Made by a program: the position numbers and the translations under genes. A stretch of 64,000 bases of DNA from an uncultured Spartobacteria bacterium. GTDB taxonomy: Bacteria > Verrucomicrobiota > Verrucomicrobiia > Chthoniobacterales > Chthoniobacteraceae. Where the stretch lies: positions 1 through 64,000 of the forward strand of contig CAIRYQ010000017.1 in assembly GCA_903882875.1 (NCBI GenBank), in the 5' to 3' direction. Of this stretch, positions 52,752 to 60,956 are shown piece after piece; within the stretch, counting starts at the first letter, position 1; the number at the start of each line of letters is the position of its first letter. The notes below the pieces were generated by a model. It was given only the letters and a program-made list of their open reading frames with translations. It was not told the origin of the DNA and did not search any database.

Positions 52752-54194
52752 ATGTTCGGGTTCGGAAAGAAACGAATTGACGAAAGGGAAGGCATCGGGG
52801 AGCGGCTGCCCGAAGAGTGGCAGGTGGTGGAGCTTGAGCTGCTTGGCTCCGGCGGCATGGCGCAGGTGTACCGGATGCGCGACGAGTTGCTCGACCGCGA
52901 AGTGGCCCTCAAGGCATTGCGCCCCGAGCTGATGAGGGAAAAGAGCGCGCTGGCGAACTTCGTCAACGAGGCGCGCATCACCGCGCAGCTCGACCATCCG
53001 AACATTCCCGCAGTCTATGCGCTGGCGTCCGACAGCAAGCGATCCAGCGTCTTCACCATGAAGGTGCTCGAGGGGCGGACGCTGAAACAGTTGCTCGACG
53101 ACAACGCGCGCGAAGGCGTGGACGGGACGCTGGCGGCCATTGACGTGCTTCTGCGCATTTGCGACGCCGTGGCCTTTGCGCACTCGAAGGGAGTGCTGCA
53201 CCTCGACATCAAGCCCGCCAACATCATCGTCGCTGACTACGGCCAGATCTATCTCGTTGATTGGGGCATCGCGCGACGCAAGGCCGACCTGCCGCAGGGG
53301 CCGGGCAAGAAGCTCGGGGAGGAGGGCACGCCGGCTTATATGGCGCCCGAGCAGGCGAACGGCGAGCACTGGAGGCTCGACGAGCGCACAGACATCTTCG
53401 CGCTGGGTGGCGTGCTGTACCGCATTCTCAGCGGCAGGGCGCCACACGCGGCTCCGACATCCGATGAGGCGGTGGAGCAGGCGGCAAAAGGGACGGTCAC
53501 GCCGCCTGATGAGGTGGCCGCGCGCAAGGGACGGACGGTGCCGCGGCGGCTCGCATTCATCTGTATGAAGGCGCTCGCTGCGGACCCGGCGCATCGGTAC
53601 GCGAACGTCCAGGAATTTCAGCGTGACCTCGATCGATACATGCGGGGGCTCGCGCAGTTGCCGCAGCGCACATTCAAGGCGGGCGAGGCCATCGTCACCG
53701 AGGGCGAGCATGGTGACGCGGCCTACGTCATCATCGAGGGCGAATGCGCAGTGACCCGGCTCGTGGGCAGTCAGCAGCAGGAAGTGCGGCGCCTGAAGAC
53801 GGGCGAGATGTTTGGTGAAATCGCGGTCTTTACCGGGAAACCGCGCCTCGCGACGGTGCGCGCGGTCTGTGACACGGTGGTGGGCTTTGTAGATCGGGCG
53901 GCCCTGCGCGAGGAGATGGAGCGCACATCGTTCATGTCGCTGGCGATTCGCACCCTGGGCTCGACGTTTCTCGAACTGGATCACCAGATGGCGCAACAGC
54001 GTCGGCAGAGCCGGGCGGTCGAACTCGCGTTGCGTCACATCGCGCTCCACGGCGAGCGCGGTCGCACGCCGTGGAAGCCGCTCCTTGCGACGCTGACGCA
54101 AAACACCGGGGCGAGCGAAACCGAAGTTTCGTCATGGGTGCTCGGCACCGCGGGGATCTCGCTTGATGGCGAATCGCTCGTGCTTCACGGCTGA
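52752..54194 (+). CDS. Ser/Thr protein kinase-cyclic nucleotide-binding domain fusion
   Basis: A 480-residue cytoplasmic protein. Residues about 25-300 are a Hanks-type kinase: G-loop GSGGMAQVY (32-40), K54 in VALK, catalytic loop HLDIKPANI (150-158), DWG (170-172) where DFG is usual, and APE (198-200). Residues about 307-395 are a cyclic-nucleotide-binding fold (FKAGEAIVTEGEHGDAAYVI; phosphate-binding cassette FGEIAVFTGKPRLATVRA with R365). The last 85 residues are unrecognised. No membrane anchor or PASTA domain. ATG 52752 is supported by a promoter 8 nt upstream. The FHA-MoxR protein could be a phospho-dependent partner, but this is speculation. Confidence 0.92.
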   Translation: MFGFGKKRIDEREGIGERLPEEWQVVELELLGSGGMAQVYRMRDELLDREVALKALRPELMREKSALANFVNEARITAQLDHPNIPAVYALASDSKRSSVFTMKVLEGRTLKQLLDDNAREGVDGTLAAIDVLLRICDAVAFAHSKGVLHLDIKPANIIVADYGQIYLVDWGIARRKADLPQGPGKKLGEEGTPAYMAPEQANGEHWRLDERTDIFALGGVLYRILSGRAPHAAPTSDEAVEQAAKGTVTPPDEVAARKGRTVPRRLAFICMKALAADPAHRYANVQEFQRDLDRYMRGLAQLPQRTFKAGEAIVTEGEHGDAAYVIIEGECAVTRLVGSQQQEVRRLKTGEMFGEIAVFTGKPRLATVRAVCDTVVGFVDRAALREEMERTSFMSLAIRTLGSTFLELDHQMAQQRRQSRAVELALRHIALHGERGRTPWKPLLATLTQNTGASETEVSSWVLGTAGISLDGESLVLHG

Positions 54195-54234
54195 ACAACT
54201 CGCGGGTGTAGCATTCCGCCTGCGCGATGCCGGG

Positions 54235-55605
54235 CTATTTCCCGGCGATCGTAGCGGGTTGCACTGGCACGGGAATGAGAGCCTTGATCAGCTTGCCCGA
54301 GGCCGTGTCCCAAATCTGCACCTCGCCCGTCTTGCTGCCGAGCGCGAGGCGGGTGCCGTCGCGGTTCAGTGCGATAGCGAGGACGGGGGACGGGACTTTC
54401 GGGATCGTGGTTTTCCGGGTACGCTTTTCGGTCTCGTAGATGCGGACTTCGCTGGCGCGCGTGGCGACCGCGAGGAGCTTGCGGTCTCCGCTGGTTGCGA
54501 GGCCCATCACGGCGTCGGCCTGCGCCTCGAATGCGCGCACGTATTGGGCACGGTTGTTGACCGGGCGCGCGCCGTTGCCGGAGCCGGTGACTTCCACGCC
54601 GCTGAGCGCGAGCTTGAAATCGTAGCCGGTGAGCGTGCGCGCGTTGCCGCCGGAAATCGCAGTGAGCGTGTCCGCTGCGACGGCGTTGATCGGGTCGGGC
54701 GATTCGTCCACGGAGCGCAGCAGTGTGCGTCCCTCGACGCTGCTGATTTTCGTCGTCTTGTCGCGGCTGCCGCTCACGAGCTGCTTGCCATCCGCGGTGA
54801 ATGCGACCGCAGTCACCCAGTCGCTGTGCAGCTCGATCATCGCGGGCTGCGCGGCTGGATCCACGGGCACGAGGTGGATCGCGCCGTTCGCACCGCCGAG
54901 CGCGATGGTCTGGCCGTCGGGTGCGAAGTTGCCCTTGAAAAATGTGTCGGTGCCGATGCGTCGCATGCCCTGCTGTTTTCCGTCGGCGGGATCGAAAAAA
55001 ATCACGCCGCCAAACTGCTGCGGCGATCCGCCCGCGGCGGCGAGGCGCTTTCCATCGGGGCTGAACTCGACATGGTTGATGATGTCGAAATCCGTCGGCA
55101 GGCGGCGAGGCGCGGAGTCGTCGTCCACGTTGAAAACCATGACTTCGCTCCGGCACGCGGCGGCGACTTGCTTTCCATCCGGGCTGATCGTGACGCTCGA
55201 TACCGCAGGCGCGCTCGCGTACGTCGCCGGGATCACGACGGGCGGCACTTCGGATTTCGGCGCCGCGTCAATCTTCGCGCCCTGCGCGATCCAGTCGTGC
55301 AGGAGCTTCACCTTCGCGGCGGAGAGCGGCGCTTCGTTCTCGGGCATCTCGGGCTTTTCACCGCTCACTTGCGTGATGAGCAGGCTGTCGTCCGGCTTGC
55401 CTGCGGCAAAAAGCGGGCCGGTCTTTCCGCCTTTCATCAGCGCGGCGACGTCGTCGAGCCGGAGCCTGCCCTTCGTCTTCTGCTCGCTGTGGCAGCCGAC
55501 GCAGTGGCGCTTGAAAATCGGCCACACGTCGCGTTGGAAACTCACGTCCTCCGCGCCCGCGGTCGCGGCGAGGAGCAGGGAAAATATCGTGGCGGTGCGG
55601 TGCAT
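54235..55605 (-). CDS. Exported cytochrome c-WD40 propeller protein
   Basis: A 456-residue exported protein (signal: ATIFSLLLAATAGA). Residues about 20-110 are a planctomycete-type cytochrome c domain with FQRDVWPIFKRHCVGCHSE (heme CVGCH, codons 55503-55489) and the GKPDDSLLITQVSG and LLHDWIAQGA tail. The rest is a WD40 propeller: VSSVTISPDGKQVAAA, HVEFSPDGKRLAAAGG, VTAVAFTADGKQLVSG. Last gene of the five-gene leftward operon, 3 nt after the DUF1549/1553 gene. Confidence 0.9.
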   Translation of the reverse strand: MHRTATIFSLLLAATAGAEDVSFQRDVWPIFKRHCVGCHSEQKTKGRLRLDDVAALMKGGKTGPLFAAGKPDDSLLITQVSGEKPEMPENEAPLSAAKVKLLHDWIAQGAKIDAAPKSEVPPVVIPATYASAPAVSSVTISPDGKQVAAACRSEVMVFNVDDDSAPRRLPTDFDIINHVEFSPDGKRLAAAGGSPQQFGGVIFFDPADGKQQGMRRIGTDTFFKGNFAPDGQTIALGGANGAIHLVPVDPAAQPAMIELHSDWVTAVAFTADGKQLVSGSRDKTTKISSVEGRTLLRSVDESPDPINAVAADTLTAISGGNARTLTGYDFKLALSGVEVTGSGNGARPVNNRAQYVRAFEAQADAVMGLATSGDRKLLAVATRASEVRIYETEKRTRKTTIPKVPSPVLAIALNRDGTRLALGSKTGEVQIWDTASGKLIKALIPVPVQPATIAGK

Positions 55606-55608
55606 GGA

Positions 55609-58047
55609 TCAGCGGAGCATCGTGAAGTCGCGGCTGTTCAGCAGCGCCCACATGAAATCCTGCACGGCGTCCGCGCGCTTGTCGGCGTAGGACTCGATGA
55701 ATTTCTTCGCCAGCGCGCGCTCGGCCTCTACGGGCCTGCGCGCGAGCGACCACAGGTAGAGCTGCTCGACGAGCTTGTCGTCGTCCAGCTTCTGCGCGAG
55801 CAGCAGCGCGGGCCGGCCGACGGGATTCGTGAGGCGGCTGAGGATGGACTGCCCGTTGATGAAGTGGAGCGCCTGGAGCATGTTCGTGCTGAGGTCGCGC
55901 TCGCACTCGCACGCCTCGGTGCGCGACGCTTTTCCGAAGAGCGCGAGGAAGCTGCTCGTCACATTGCCATCGGGCAGTTGCGCGGCTGTGAAGCCCGCGG
56001 GCGCGCCGCCGAAATTTTCCTTCACGCCGGTCGCCTGCACGAGCGAATCGAGCAGCGCCTCGGCGGGCAGGCGGCGCGGGATCGCGCGGGAGAAATTCAG
56101 ATCGTCGTGGCCGTTGGTTTCGTTCGGCACCGAACTGCGCTGGTAGGTCTGCGACGCAAGGATGGTGCGCATGAGGTGGCGCATGTCGAATTTGTGCTCC
56201 ACGAAATCCTTCGTCAGCGCGTCGAGCAGCGGGCCATTGATCGGCGGGCTGGTCGAGCGCAGATCGTCCACGGGATCAATGATGCCGCGGTGGAAAAAGT
56301 AACTCCACACGCGGTTCACGAGGCTGCGCGCGAAGTGCGGATTCTCCGGCGCGGTGAGCCAGCGCGCGTAGTCGGCGCGGCGATCAATTCCGGCATCGAG
56401 CTTCGGCTCGCTGCCGCCGAGGTAGCGCGGCGGCTGCGGCTTCGCGGTGCGCGGATTCGTCGAGGAGCCGGTGGCGAGATTGACGAGCACGGTCTTTGCG
56501 TTCGTCACACCGGAGAGCCGCGGATCGGGCTTCGTGGCGACTTGGTTGAAGAAGCTGTGGACGCCGTAGTAGTCCGCCTGCGTCCAGTTTTCGAACGGAT
56601 GCGGATGGCACCGCGCGCAAAGCATCCGCACGCCGCAAAAGACCTGCGTCGCGCGCTGGAGCGTGTCGTCGGTGTCCTTGCTCACGGAAAAATACGCGGC
56701 GGCGGGATTGTCCATGAAGCTGCCGCGCGCCGTGAGGATCTGCCGCGCGAATTCGTCCAGCGGCATGTTGCCCGCGACCGCGGCGCGGATCCATTCGCGG
56801 AAGGCAAACACCGCGGGATCACTCGACGTGTTGCGCGAATTTTGCAACAGGTCGCCCCACTTCAGCGACCACCAGTCCACGAATTCGCCGCGCTGCATCA
56901 GTGCATCAATCATCTTCGTGCGCTTCGCCGGGTCGTTGTCCGCGACAAATGCGAGCACCTGCTCGGGCGTCGGCTGGAGGCCGGTGAGATCCACCGATGC
57001 GCGGCGCAGGAAAGTCTCATCGTCCGTGACTTCGGACGGCTTGATGCGCAGGTCGTTCAGCTTCGCGACGACGTGTCTGTCCACGACGTTGGCCGCGGGC
57101 ACCGGCGTCGCGACGAAGCCCGTGTCCGGCGGCAGCACGATCAGATTTGCGACTGTGAAAATCCCCTCGTAGCGCGCGACGATTGCCGTCTCGCCGAGGT
57201 CGGTCACCGAGACGAGGCCGACGTCGTCCACCTTCGCCACGCGCTCGATGTTCACGCTGAAAATCCCCGAGCGCGACACGTCGCGCACCGATCCGTCGCT
57301 GTATTTTGCGAGGAGCTGGAACTGCATCTGTGACTTCGGCTGCACCGCGACTTTTTCCGGATGGATGCTCACCGAGACGAGCTTCGGCAGCGTCGGCGCG
57401 TCGTCCTTTGCGCCCTCGGCGATCCAGCGGCGCAGCGTCTCGTGCATCTCGCTGCCGTGGTCAATGCGCACGCCGCCCTCGTGCGGCAGATCGCCGAGCG
57501 GCTTGAGCAGCAGCAGGCTCGCGGGCGGGTTGTGGCGGTTGATGCGGCGTTCGGCGAATTCGTCGGTGAGAGAAAGGAAGTCCTTCTCCGCGTCCGCGCC
57601 GCGCAGCGAGAGCTTGAAGCCGTTTTTTCCGAGCGAATACCCGTGGCACGCGCCCGCGTTGCAACTGCCCTTCGAGAGCACGGGCATCACGTCCTGCCGA
57701 AAGCTCGTGCCCGCGTGCGCGGCGGGGAGCTGCACGTTCACGTTCACTTTCGCCGTGCGTCCACCTGCTTGCACGGTGATGACCGCGTCGCCGTTCGCGA
57801 CCGGCTGCACCCAGCCGAGGACATCCACGCGCGCGATCTTTTCGTCGCTGCTGGTGAAAGTGGCGCTGCCGGTAAAATCCACGTCGTAACCGTCCTTCGT
57901 GCGCGCCTGCACGAGCAGCGAATGCGGGCGCAGCGGATGCGTGAGCTTCACGGTCGCGGGAGTGAGTTGCAGATCGCCGACGATGTCCGCAGCACCGCAG
58001 CGGAGGCATGTGACGAGGGCGATGAAAAATGTGGCGAGGAGTTTCAT
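55609..58047 (-). CDS. DUF1549/DUF1553 cytochrome protein (PSD1 type)
   Basis: An 812-residue exported protein (signal: MKLLATFFIALVTCLRCGA) of a family found mainly in planctomycetes and verrucomicrobia. Order: Ig-like BIG2 domain (GSATFTSSDEKIARVDVLGW), a heme-type site in VLSKGSCNAGACHGYSLG with an unusual CX4CH spacing (codons 57663-57643), a second Ig-like region, DUF1549 (FLRRASVDLTGLQPTPEQVL) with LCARCHPHPFENW (CX2CH, codons 56619-56605), and DUF1553 (FARSLVNRVWSYFFHRGI). The start is ATG 58047, which overlaps the stop of the PPC-like gene (ATGA). The DUF1501 protein of the same operon is its usual partner; function unproven. Confidence 0.9.
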   Translation of the reverse strand: MKLLATFFIALVTCLRCGAADIVGDLQLTPATVKLTHPLRPHSLLVQARTKDGYDVDFTGSATFTSSDEKIARVDVLGWVQPVANGDAVITVQAGGRTAKVNVNVQLPAAHAGTSFRQDVMPVLSKGSCNAGACHGYSLGKNGFKLSLRGADAEKDFLSLTDEFAERRINRHNPPASLLLLKPLGDLPHEGGVRIDHGSEMHETLRRWIAEGAKDDAPTLPKLVSVSIHPEKVAVQPKSQMQFQLLAKYSDGSVRDVSRSGIFSVNIERVAKVDDVGLVSVTDLGETAIVARYEGIFTVANLIVLPPDTGFVATPVPAANVVDRHVVAKLNDLRIKPSEVTDDETFLRRASVDLTGLQPTPEQVLAFVADNDPAKRTKMIDALMQRGEFVDWWSLKWGDLLQNSRNTSSDPAVFAFREWIRAAVAGNMPLDEFARQILTARGSFMDNPAAAYFSVSKDTDDTLQRATQVFCGVRMLCARCHPHPFENWTQADYYGVHSFFNQVATKPDPRLSGVTNAKTVLVNLATGSSTNPRTAKPQPPRYLGGSEPKLDAGIDRRADYARWLTAPENPHFARSLVNRVWSYFFHRGIIDPVDDLRSTSPPINGPLLDALTKDFVEHKFDMRHLMRTILASQTYQRSSVPNETNGHDDLNFSRAIPRRLPAEALLDSLVQATGVKENFGGAPAGFTAAQLPDGNVTSSFLALFGKASRTEACECERDLSTNMLQALHFINGQSILSRLTNPVGRPALLLAQKLDDDKLVEQLYLWSLARRPVEAERALAKKFIESYADKRADAVQDFMWALLNSRDFTMLR

Positions 58048-60956
58048 GTCACTGTTGAGATTCTGTTCGGCACTTCGGGCGACGGCGGTTCCGCGGGCCA
58101 AAGGCCCGAAGCAAGCCAGCCCAGGGCAACGCCCTGGGGAAATCGTAGAAATGAGACAAAGCCCTGAAAGGGCGTGACAACGTGTGTCGCCCTTTCAGGG
58201 CTTTGTCCGTTTTGAATGCAAGACCCAGGGCGGCGCTCGTGCCTCGCTTGCCCTGGGCTGGCTTGTGCAGGGCCTTTGGCCCAAAATCCCAGCTCAGTCG
58301 AAAGCGCGGAACAGGCTTTGGGATTGGGCTTCGGATCAGCCTTCGCGTCGGGCTTCGCATCAGGCTTGGCGGCGGGCTTTGCATCCGGTGCGACGGCGGG
58401 CGCGGCGGCTGGTTTTGCAGCGGGCTTGGGCTCCGCGGGCGGATCGGGCGGGAGGACTTTCATCGTCACTTCCATGTCGCGCGTGCGGACATTGAGGTTG
58501 CCGCCGAACGGTCTCCCGGTGCCGGAAATTTTCAGGCCGGGGAAATCGCCGGGTTTGAAATTCGCGGGCACCTTCAGCGCGAATTTGAACTGCTTCTCGC
58601 TGGCCTTCACGACCACGGAGGCGGGAGTCGCGGTGACTCCGGAGGGCAGGCCCGCGAGCGTGAGCGTGACGTCGCCCGTCGCGCCTTCGATGCGCTCGAC
58701 AGTCCCGGTGAGTTCGAGCGACGCGCCGGCTCTTGCGTCGAGCTTTGCGGGCGCGGGCGGATTCAGTTTCAGCACGAGCGGATTCACCACGGGCACCTCG
58801 CGGACGGGCGTGTAGGCGACGGCCTCGACGGTGCGGCGGTCGCGCTTAAGCAGCTCGGCCTTGAACGCGATCTGATGCGGAATTTCCGGCAGTTCGGCGG
58901 GGACGAGCAGGACAAACTCGACGTCGTTCTTCATCTCTTTCGCCGCGGCGGTGAGCGCCTGCTGTGTCTTTTCGAGCGTCGTCTGCGCCGCTTCTTTTTT
59001 CTTTTCTGCCGCGTCTTTCGCCGCGTCGTCCTTCGCGGCCGTGATCGCTTTTTCCGCGGCGGCGAGCGCGGTCTCGGCGGCGGTGACGGCGTCGAATGCC
59101 TGCTGCGTTTTCTTGTCCTCCTCGATCAGCATGGCTTTTTCCTCGCGGAGCATTTTTGTCGCGTCCACGGCGTTGTTGGTGAATTGCCGCGCCTGGCTCG
59201 TGAGCAGTGTGAGGCGCACGGGGCCGTCGTGGCCGGGCGTACGCCCACAGGTCACAGGGAGCGTGAGCTTGCCGGCAAGCGGGATTTTTTTGACGTCCGC
59301 GGCCTTGCCCCACGCGGCGTCGAACTGCACTTCCGGCTTCGCCGCGCTCGCGAGCGCGAGATCGTTTTCGAGCCACGGCTGGAATTTTCCGAGCTGCGCG
59401 CTCTCGAATGCGGCGGGCACTTCGCGATCTTTGCCGCGGCCTTTCAGTGCGGCGATGACCGCGGTCACCGGTTTGTCGCTTGAGAGCGTGACGAGTGTGG
59501 CGGTGGCCTGTGCGGGGATTTTCTGGCCGGAGACTTTCACGCCGTCTGGCAGGTGCTCGAATTGCAAATCAATCGGCCCGTCGTAGCCGTCGCGTTTCGC
59601 CTCGACTTTGATGACACCGGCGCGGCCGGGCTGGAGCGTGTGGCTGTCCTCGATCATCGCGAGCGAAAAATCGGCGGGCTTCGTTCCGGCACGGACAGTC
59701 GCTTGCAGCCGGTAGATGCAGTGCGGGCCACCGTTGCCGTTCACGTCATGCACGACGGCGGTGAGCTTCGTCACCTCCTTCGGTACTTTGTAAATGAGGC
59801 GCGGGTCGGGGCTCTTTCCGTCGTCGTCATTGATCGCGAGGCGCGCGCCTTTCGCATCGAGCAGCTCGAGTTCCGCATCAATCGGAGAGCCGAGCGAATC
59901 GGCGAAAACCTGGAGTTCCACTTCGGTCTCGGGCTGCACGGTGATGTCGTAAGCGTCGCTCTCGCCGGGCGCGCTGATGCGCCCGTTCACAGCGACCGGC
60001 AGCGCGGGCAGCGCCTGCGGTGCGGAGCCGGTGCGCTGCTCGACGAGTTCCGGCAAATCGCTCAGCCACACCGCGGGCTGCGGGCCGCTGGAGGTCGCGG
60101 CGTCGGCCCACGGCGCGGGCACGGCGCGGCCTTCGGCGTTCGACGGCAGACGCACCGTGCGCGTTTCGCCGTCGCGTCCCACGAGCTGAACTTCGGCGGA
60201 TGTGCCGCGCTGGACGGTCGAGGGAAAAGCAAGATCCGCGTACGACCACTTGCCGATCTTCAGCCGGAAATGCGCGGGCGCGGCGGCGGTGAACTGGAGA
60301 TCATTTACCGTCACGCGGTAGTCACCGTCGGCGGGCAGCTTCACCTCAAAGCGCGTGTCTCCACGCAGCGCGGTCTGCGGGAGGCTCCACTTCAGCAGCG
60401 TGTTGCCGGGGCCGTAAAGTTTCAGCACGGGGCGCAGCTTGCTCTCGATGCGCTGCGCTTCGATCTCGCAGATGATCTCCTGCCCGGCCTTGCCGGGGAA
60501 AGTGACTTCGCGCACCTGGCTTGCGGTGAGCGTGCCGTGCAGCGCAGCCGGAAGTGACGCGATTTTTTCCGCGAACACCGTCTGCAGCATCGCGTCCGTG
60601 GCTAAGACGCTGCGTGCGGAGACGCCGTTGTCCGTCACGAGCCACCAGTTTTCCAGGCCCGGCTGCGAGCCCGGTGCGAGTTCGATTTCGAGCGCGATGC
60701 GATCGGGTTTTGCGCCGTCCTTGAGCGTCTGCTTCGCGATGCGCGCGGTGGTGAGGATGCGCGGATTCGGCAGCAAGTCCGTGCCGGTGATCACGAGCGT
60801 CGTCGGCTTGCCAATTTGCAATCCGCGCAAATCCACGCCGCTCACGACCGGCGGTGCGGCGTGCAGCGATGCCGCGCATGCGATCAGCGCCGAGCCACGC
60901 AGGACGGAGTGAAACGATGACGGAAAACTTTTCACCCGGCCTTGATCGATCGTCAC
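58044..60956 (-). CDS. Large exported PPC-like repeat protein
   Basis: A 970-residue exported protein starting at GTG 60956, overlapping the DUF1501 stop as GTGA. It is made of beta-sandwich modules: bacterial pre-peptidase-like (PPC) repeats around 320-420 (RISAPGESDAYDITVQPETE, VELQVFADSLGSPIDAELEL), Ig-like units later (LELTGTVERIEGATGDVTLT), and a coiled coil at about 605-685 (MLREEKAMLIEEDKKTQQAF). A Lys/Pro/Ala linker precedes a C-terminal tail encoded by an inverted-repeat element (58095-58282), so the last about 70 residues are foreign-looking. Likely a cell-surface or periplasmic adhesive or scaffold protein of the cytochrome operon. Confidence 0.85.
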   Translation of the reverse strand: MTIDQGRVKSFPSSFHSVLRGSALIACAASLHAAPPVVSGVDLRGLQIGKPTTLVITGTDLLPNPRILTTARIAKQTLKDGAKPDRIALEIELAPGSQPGLENWWLVTDNGVSARSVLATDAMLQTVFAEKIASLPAALHGTLTASQVREVTFPGKAGQEIICEIEAQRIESKLRPVLKLYGPGNTLLKWSLPQTALRGDTRFEVKLPADGDYRVTVNDLQFTAAAPAHFRLKIGKWSYADLAFPSTVQRGTSAEVQLVGRDGETRTVRLPSNAEGRAVPAPWADAATSSGPQPAVWLSDLPELVEQRTGSAPQALPALPVAVNGRISAPGESDAYDITVQPETEVELQVFADSLGSPIDAELELLDAKGARLAINDDDGKSPDPRLIYKVPKEVTKLTAVVHDVNGNGGPHCIYRLQATVRAGTKPADFSLAMIEDSHTLQPGRAGVIKVEAKRDGYDGPIDLQFEHLPDGVKVSGQKIPAQATATLVTLSSDKPVTAVIAALKGRGKDREVPAAFESAQLGKFQPWLENDLALASAAKPEVQFDAAWGKAADVKKIPLAGKLTLPVTCGRTPGHDGPVRLTLLTSQARQFTNNAVDATKMLREEKAMLIEEDKKTQQAFDAVTAAETALAAAEKAITAAKDDAAKDAAEKKKEAAQTTLEKTQQALTAAAKEMKNDVEFVLLVPAELPEIPHQIAFKAELLKRDRRTVEAVAYTPVREVPVVNPLVLKLNPPAPAKLDARAGASLELTGTVERIEGATGDVTLTLAGLPSGVTATPASVVVKASEKQFKFALKVPANFKPGDFPGLKISGTGRPFGGNLNVRTRDMEVTMKVLPPDPPAEPKPAAKPAAAPAVAPDAKPAAKPDAKPDAKADPKPNPKACSALSTELGFWAKGPAQASPGQARHERRPGSCIQNGQSPERATHVVTPFQGFVSFLRFPQGVALGWLASGLWPAEPPSPEVPNRISTVT
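58095..58282. repeat. 188-bp compound inverted-repeat element in coding frame
   Basis: Outer arms gggccaaaggccc (from 58095) and its complement ending at 58282, continuing as imperfect pairing through the caagccagcccagggca motifs; inner perfect 20-bp stem 58155-58174 / 58188-58207 with a 13-nt loop. This looks like a REP/MITE-type repeat. It lies within the last part of the PPC-like gene and adds an open tail before the ATGA overlap with the next gene. Confidence 0.85.

Follow-up and report, generated by a model that had tools for sequence, protein, structure and literature searches.

In a 64,000-nucleotide stretch of DNA from an uncultured Spartobacteria bacterium (the window), a minus-strand reading frame of 970 codons stays open across the whole of a palindromic repeat element, which supplies about 89 residues at its end, about residues 879–967 of the predicted protein. 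Very probably the element is a copy of a RAYT-linked repeat of the REPIN/TIRtron kind whose insertion point was the native stop codon of the upstream gene or a site adjacent to it, and the protein tail is an incidental by-product. The insertion, in an operon pair and at or beside that stop, would most likely have displaced the stop from the reading frame. The frame that leads into the element would by chance have been open, as two of the six are, and would have run to a TGA that shares bases with the next ATG. The tail would then have arisen incidentally when a selfish element inserted, and would be tolerated at a C terminus that is variable in length among relatives. The features are listed in the table below.

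Table. Features of the element and of the gene junction, in window coordinates.
Feature	Coordinates	Strand	Basis and remarks
Inner palindrome (the element as first annotated)	58095..58282		Inverted arms, RNA fold, alignment of copies
Whole REPIN-like element including diverged outer arms	58056..58321	-	266 bp; outer arms of same-genome copies and anchored alignment; ends uncertain by 1–2 nt
Central hairpin AAAGCCCTGAAAGGGCG...CGCCCTTTCAGGGCTTT	58158..58204		17-mer on both strands
Arm matching Rfam RF01687 Acido-Lenti-1	58094..58138	-	30.4 bits, under the gathering score of 37
Upstream gene, no family assigned (earlier label PPC-like)	58044..60956	-	970 aa with element-encoded tail; orthologues 48–67% identical
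Lineage-specific Ala/Lys/Pro-rich extension	58322..58406	-	Follows the point where the orthologues end and precedes the element; codon score +0.15
Downstream gene with PSCyt2 (DUF1549), PSD1 (DUF1553) and Big_2 domains	55609..58047	-	Pfam; ATG overlaps the new stop

The palindrome itself was correctly recognized by the first-pass annotation. Its inverted arms (58095–58129 and 58248–58282) are 35 nt long, are 89% complementary and enclose a second stem; the predicted RNA fold of the strand has an energy of −135.4 kcal/mol against a mean of −81.75 for shuffled sequences (z −12.2, with none of 200 shuffles as good), and the inner 17-mer AAAGCCCTGAAAGGGCG is perfect on both strands, with two matches in the window where 0.10 are expected. 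The length of 188 bp given to the element, however, is too short, and we reject the inner palindrome as the entire element. In many same-genome copies additional inverted arms, each about 43 nt long, lie outside the palindrome, and because the window flanks align with the consensus of these outer arms at the expected place, we take the element to be about 266 bp long. In the anchored alignment only 2 of 19,694 random 60-mers score as well as the flank on the side of the downstream gene; 492 of 19,694 do so for the other (right) flank, which is weak support by itself, and the summed score of both alignments is reached by 1 of 19,694 random pairs. A by-eye look at the window flanks established no target-site duplication.

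The nested fold, with its long invariant arms, is common to 12 aligned copies of the element. Of the 71 pairs in the consensus fold of the entire element, nine show a double-sided change in at least one of the 12 copies, and the covariation term is slightly unfavourable (+1.79 kcal/mol), so that most of the fold signal is conservation. Two miRNA-type Rfam families, RF03360 and RF03975, match the central stem at scores far under their cut-offs; we put these matches down to the response of such models to any near-perfect hairpin.

The element is one member of a repeat family. When its own genome (5.78 Mb in 129 contigs) was searched at the DNA level, 77 matches were obtained over the two strands, which reduce to 32 places, some of them partial or at contig ends. 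The central 17-mer with no more than two mismatches occurs 41 times in this genome, as compared with 2 occurrences of the reversed control pattern, and a 15-base arm core with no more than one mismatch occurs 45 times, as compared with none for its control; the window copy is 78–79% identical to the best near-full-length copies. Relatives of the element are found in 32 of the 57 genomes searched, including all nine of the same genus. The original description of a REP- or MITE-like element is borne out by these copies, as well as by a pair of copies around a RAYT gene. The family is dispersed, multi-copy and mostly intergenic, as are REPINs: when the context of 20 of the 32 places was examined, only the window copy proved to be spanned by a called ORF, and two of the other 19 are overlapped by one, by 41 and 2 nt respectively. 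We also note that copies lie at or near the ends of contigs C20, C27, C44, C58, C64, C80, C94, C108 and C126 of this genome; the repeat has probably broken the assembly there, and the true copy number is uncertain. A genome of the same family (G029) has 122 arm-core matches and 80 matches to RF01687 in about 3.6 Mb, far above its relatives, and this excess is perhaps a recent burst of the repeat.

The 970-residue protein has no match to any Pfam family, leaving the label PPC-like without support. Comparison with its orthologues shows what the junction looks like when the element is absent. There are 11 distinct orthologues at 14 loci besides the window's own (L131, L132 and L133 apparently duplicate L127, L063 and L064), and in ten of these the gene stops near the position of window residue 850, no more than about 12 codons past the last conserved residues, with endings such as ...PPAEAKPSG, ...PKPAGQS and ...QAEAKK, and with no element present. 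The operon order is retained in the relatives that lack the element. The eleventh orthologue, in a genome of another genus (G024, locus L066), also has no element and has no stop between the two genes, which form one open frame; this could be a second lost stop at the junction or a sequencing or draft-assembly error. An Ala/Lys/Pro-rich extension followed by the element is found in the window protein alone among the orthologues compared, and none of the 11 has the same tail without the repeat. The in-frame read-through originally proposed is thus confirmed, and the tail is a lineage-specific gain, since ten of the 11 orthologues stop near residue 850 and do so without an element. Just after the stop of the orthologue, by eye, loci L128 and L134 have other sequence with open frames, and loci L129 and L130 have other inverted repeats; because these four carry other insertions there, the junction looks permissive, or tolerant of insertion.

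In the window the TGA of the upstream gene (58046–58044) and the ATG of the downstream gene share bases, as ATGA, from which the first-pass annotation had concluded that the insertion left translational coupling unbroken. We do not accept this conclusion. In the same-genus genome G004 the native stop at the junction reads TGA-T-ATG, and at the place of that stop, where the native stop of the window gene presumably also lay, the window keeps the sequence TGA-C-ATG, but out of frame. Excision of 265 bp from the window would restore a stop separated from the ATG by a single base, the arrangement of G004, excision of 266 bp would give an in-frame gene fusion, and excision of 267 bp would give the present ATGA. 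The ends of the element are uncertain by 1–2 nt, which is too imprecise to choose among these outcomes, and preserved coupling can therefore not be claimed; from the bases at the junction, the ATGA may have arisen through the frame shift and need not be a conserved feature.

The position of the element also raises the question of a role in expression, in which the hairpin would be a terminator, an attenuator or an mRNA-stability element and the open frame would be incidental. Such a role is compatible with the insertion of a mobile copy, and the strength of the predicted hairpin and its location at the junction of a gene pair are in keeping with it, as are passages of PMC3733652 which report that most REPs are found 3' of coding regions and that transcription is presumed for many of them. 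However, no such element is present at the junction in the other orthologues, and ribosomes reading through would melt the hairpin, and we consider it unlikely that expression accounts for the element.

Whether the tail is coding in more than a formal sense can be judged from its codons. The first-pass annotation held that the element had become coding and that it added about 63 residues; the frame is indeed open throughout, although in a draft assembly of 129 contigs a single-base error could make or break such a frame, but the number of residues is closer to 89 and the codon usage of the element is not coding-like. A codon model, whose scores are relative because its training set of 30 window ORFs was picked iteratively from two seed genes, gives, in the frame of the gene, +0.333 for the gene body, +0.149 for the Ala/Lys/Pro-rich extension and −0.211 for the element. 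The same model chose the opposite strand over a 1056-aa plus-strand ORF (54163–57333) antisense to the PSCyt2/PSD1 gene, and this ORF is probably spurious, being the antisense frame of a GC-rich gene.

Nor are open frames enriched in the element family. Although two of the six frames are open throughout in the window copy, the mean for 63 paired elements is 2.24 of six, as compared with 2.44 in controls that are first-order resamplings rather than exact dinucleotide shuffles. A coding-like frame enters at 5 of 116 eligible edges in 62 elements, and among these 62 the entering frame of the window copy is the only one that is both strong (0.26) and open throughout. These sets were drawn from 73 loci, of which 53 were chosen among the matches listed in relatives and the other 20 are own-genome places (out of 32), and only elements with both arm cores were counted; the set of 62 is the set of 63 minus a false pair in L003. 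A second candidate, a frame ending inside an element of G004 (L203), looked spurious on reading and was not counted. We read the tail as incidental because its codons are not coding-like, open frames are not in excess, there is a single strong read-through among 62 elements, and the element-encoded tail has no Pfam match; it is presumably translated, and presumably neutral.

The same observations bear on the suggestion that this is a coding palindrome like the Rickettsia palindromic elements (RPEs), shaped for tolerance inside proteins and supplying a functional peptide module. RPEs are the classical coding palindromes, and there is an evident likeness in that a palindrome of about 150 bp lies in frame inside a protein gene (passages of PMC10969869); a long frame is likewise open through the element in the window gene, and two of its six frames are open. 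But RPEs are described in the same passages as recurring in ORFs with a conserved peptide, and neither holds for the family of the window element: in-frame insertion is not recurrent, no conserved open frame or peptide is apparent, no called ORF spans the element in the other 19 own-genome copies tested, and the tail has neither coding-like codons nor a Pfam match. An RPE-like origin is thus highly improbable. An assembly artefact, in which a mis-assembly inserted the repeat or opened the frame, is slightly less probable still, for although several copies lie at contig ends and repeats do disturb this assembly, both flanks are those of one conserved operon, and the window copy is not a collapsed repeat because it differs from the other copies and has its own diverged outer arms.

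The insertion of a mobile repeat is further supported by the association of the family with RAYT genes. There are three Y1_Tnp genes in the own genome, and the RAYT of contig C120 (Y1_Tnp, E 3.1e-23) lies between an element (117882–118104) and a half element (118640–118760), so that the same or a related repeat flanks a RAYT gene, as is the case for REPINs. We scanned 32 RAYT loci, consisting of 30 loci from the family among the RAYT matches listed together with L111 and L113. The 12-mer core of the element lies no more than 300 bp from the RAYT in nine of these; the corresponding figure for control tiles, each 1060 bp long, is 5 of 175. Either this core or a match to RF01687 lies within 300 bp in 23 of the 32, the nine loci with the core and the 14 with RF01687 being without overlap. 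Arm-core counts of at least 10 are found in 6 of the 28 genomes of the family that have a RAYT match and in none of the 12 that lack one, a difference that is not significant (Fisher p 0.15). By-eye inspection of the same-genome copies revealed no conserved GTAG tag at the element ends, and several outer ends read CTAG. By analogy with published work on REPINs (passages of PMC3116915 and PMC8266576), and because copies flank RAYT genes, we infer that the element is moved by a RAYT via single-stranded DNA.

The likeness to REPINs as described in passages of PMC3116915 is substantial: REPINs consist of two inverted palindromic units and a spacer that form one hairpin, a predicted arrangement that the window element shares, and they are multi-copy, mostly intergenic and flank RAYT genes. 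Elements of the window type are longer, however, at about 190–300 bp, with nested stems and outer arms, and by eye no conserved GTAG tag is seen at their ends. TIRtrons and TIRYT-associated repeats are similar in that long self-complementary inverted repeats flank RAYT-like genes and also form a dispersed family, and the REPs of the same report can lie in ORFs, give their neighbours stop codons and sit at gene ends, with intragenic GTAG REPs notable in the verrucomicrobium O. terrae (passages of PMC3733652); the likeness is to these repeats as they are described. Gene-end read-through of a repeat is thus a known kind of accident. The published intragenic dimers and groups mostly account for 20–30 residues, and clusters for 43–82, whereas the single element of the window would account for about 89.

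The element also shows a relationship to the Rfam family RF01687 (Acido-Lenti-1), which is listed as a small-RNA gene of Acidobacteria and Lentisphaerae (passages of PMC2864571). One window arm fits all 46 positions of the RF01687 model, although at a score under the curated cut-off; the best score in the own genome among the matches listed is 36.1 bits, also under it, and 12 element-bearing loci compared with Rfam at gathering scores gave no match. RF01687 is multi-copy in the family, with matches in 28 of 40 genomes, over the cut-off in 17 of the 40. Like the element, RF01687 flanks RAYT genes: a match lies within 300 bp of the RAYT in 14 of the 32 loci (L111 of the own genome, L170, L172, L173, L175, L176, L178, L179, L181–L183, L185, L190 and L193), on both sides in seven, and mostly at 45–70 bp from the stretch of the gene that was matched, where the matches often form divergent pairs, one on either side. 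There is none in 14 control loci (67,099 bases; Fisher p 0.004). At least 10 RF01687 matches are present in 16 of the 28 family genomes with a RAYT match and in one of the 12 without (Fisher p 0.005), the exception being G030, with 21 RF01687 matches and no RAYT match. Outside the family, RF01687 occurs in 6 of 20 Y1_Tnp loci from the phylum, not all of them within 300 bp. We therefore think it likely that RF01687 does not represent an RNA gene family: it would instead be the unit repeated in a RAYT-driven mobile element, with the window element as a divergent member. In passages of a 2026 paper (PMC13298647) the function of RF01687 is said to be little known, and copies downstream of proteases are suggested as possible regulators of these genes; the passages on Acido-Lenti-1 that we examined contain no link to RAYTs, and such a link may have been recognized elsewhere.

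The read-through at this junction is a clear case in which a mobile hairpin lengthens a protein to no apparent advantage, and cautions against inferring a function from such tails. If RF01687 is indeed a RAYT repeat, then its small-RNA and regulatory annotations should be revised, a reclassification that is testable, and its spread, including the copies near other genes, would reflect hairpin transposition, with an occasional protein extended as a result.
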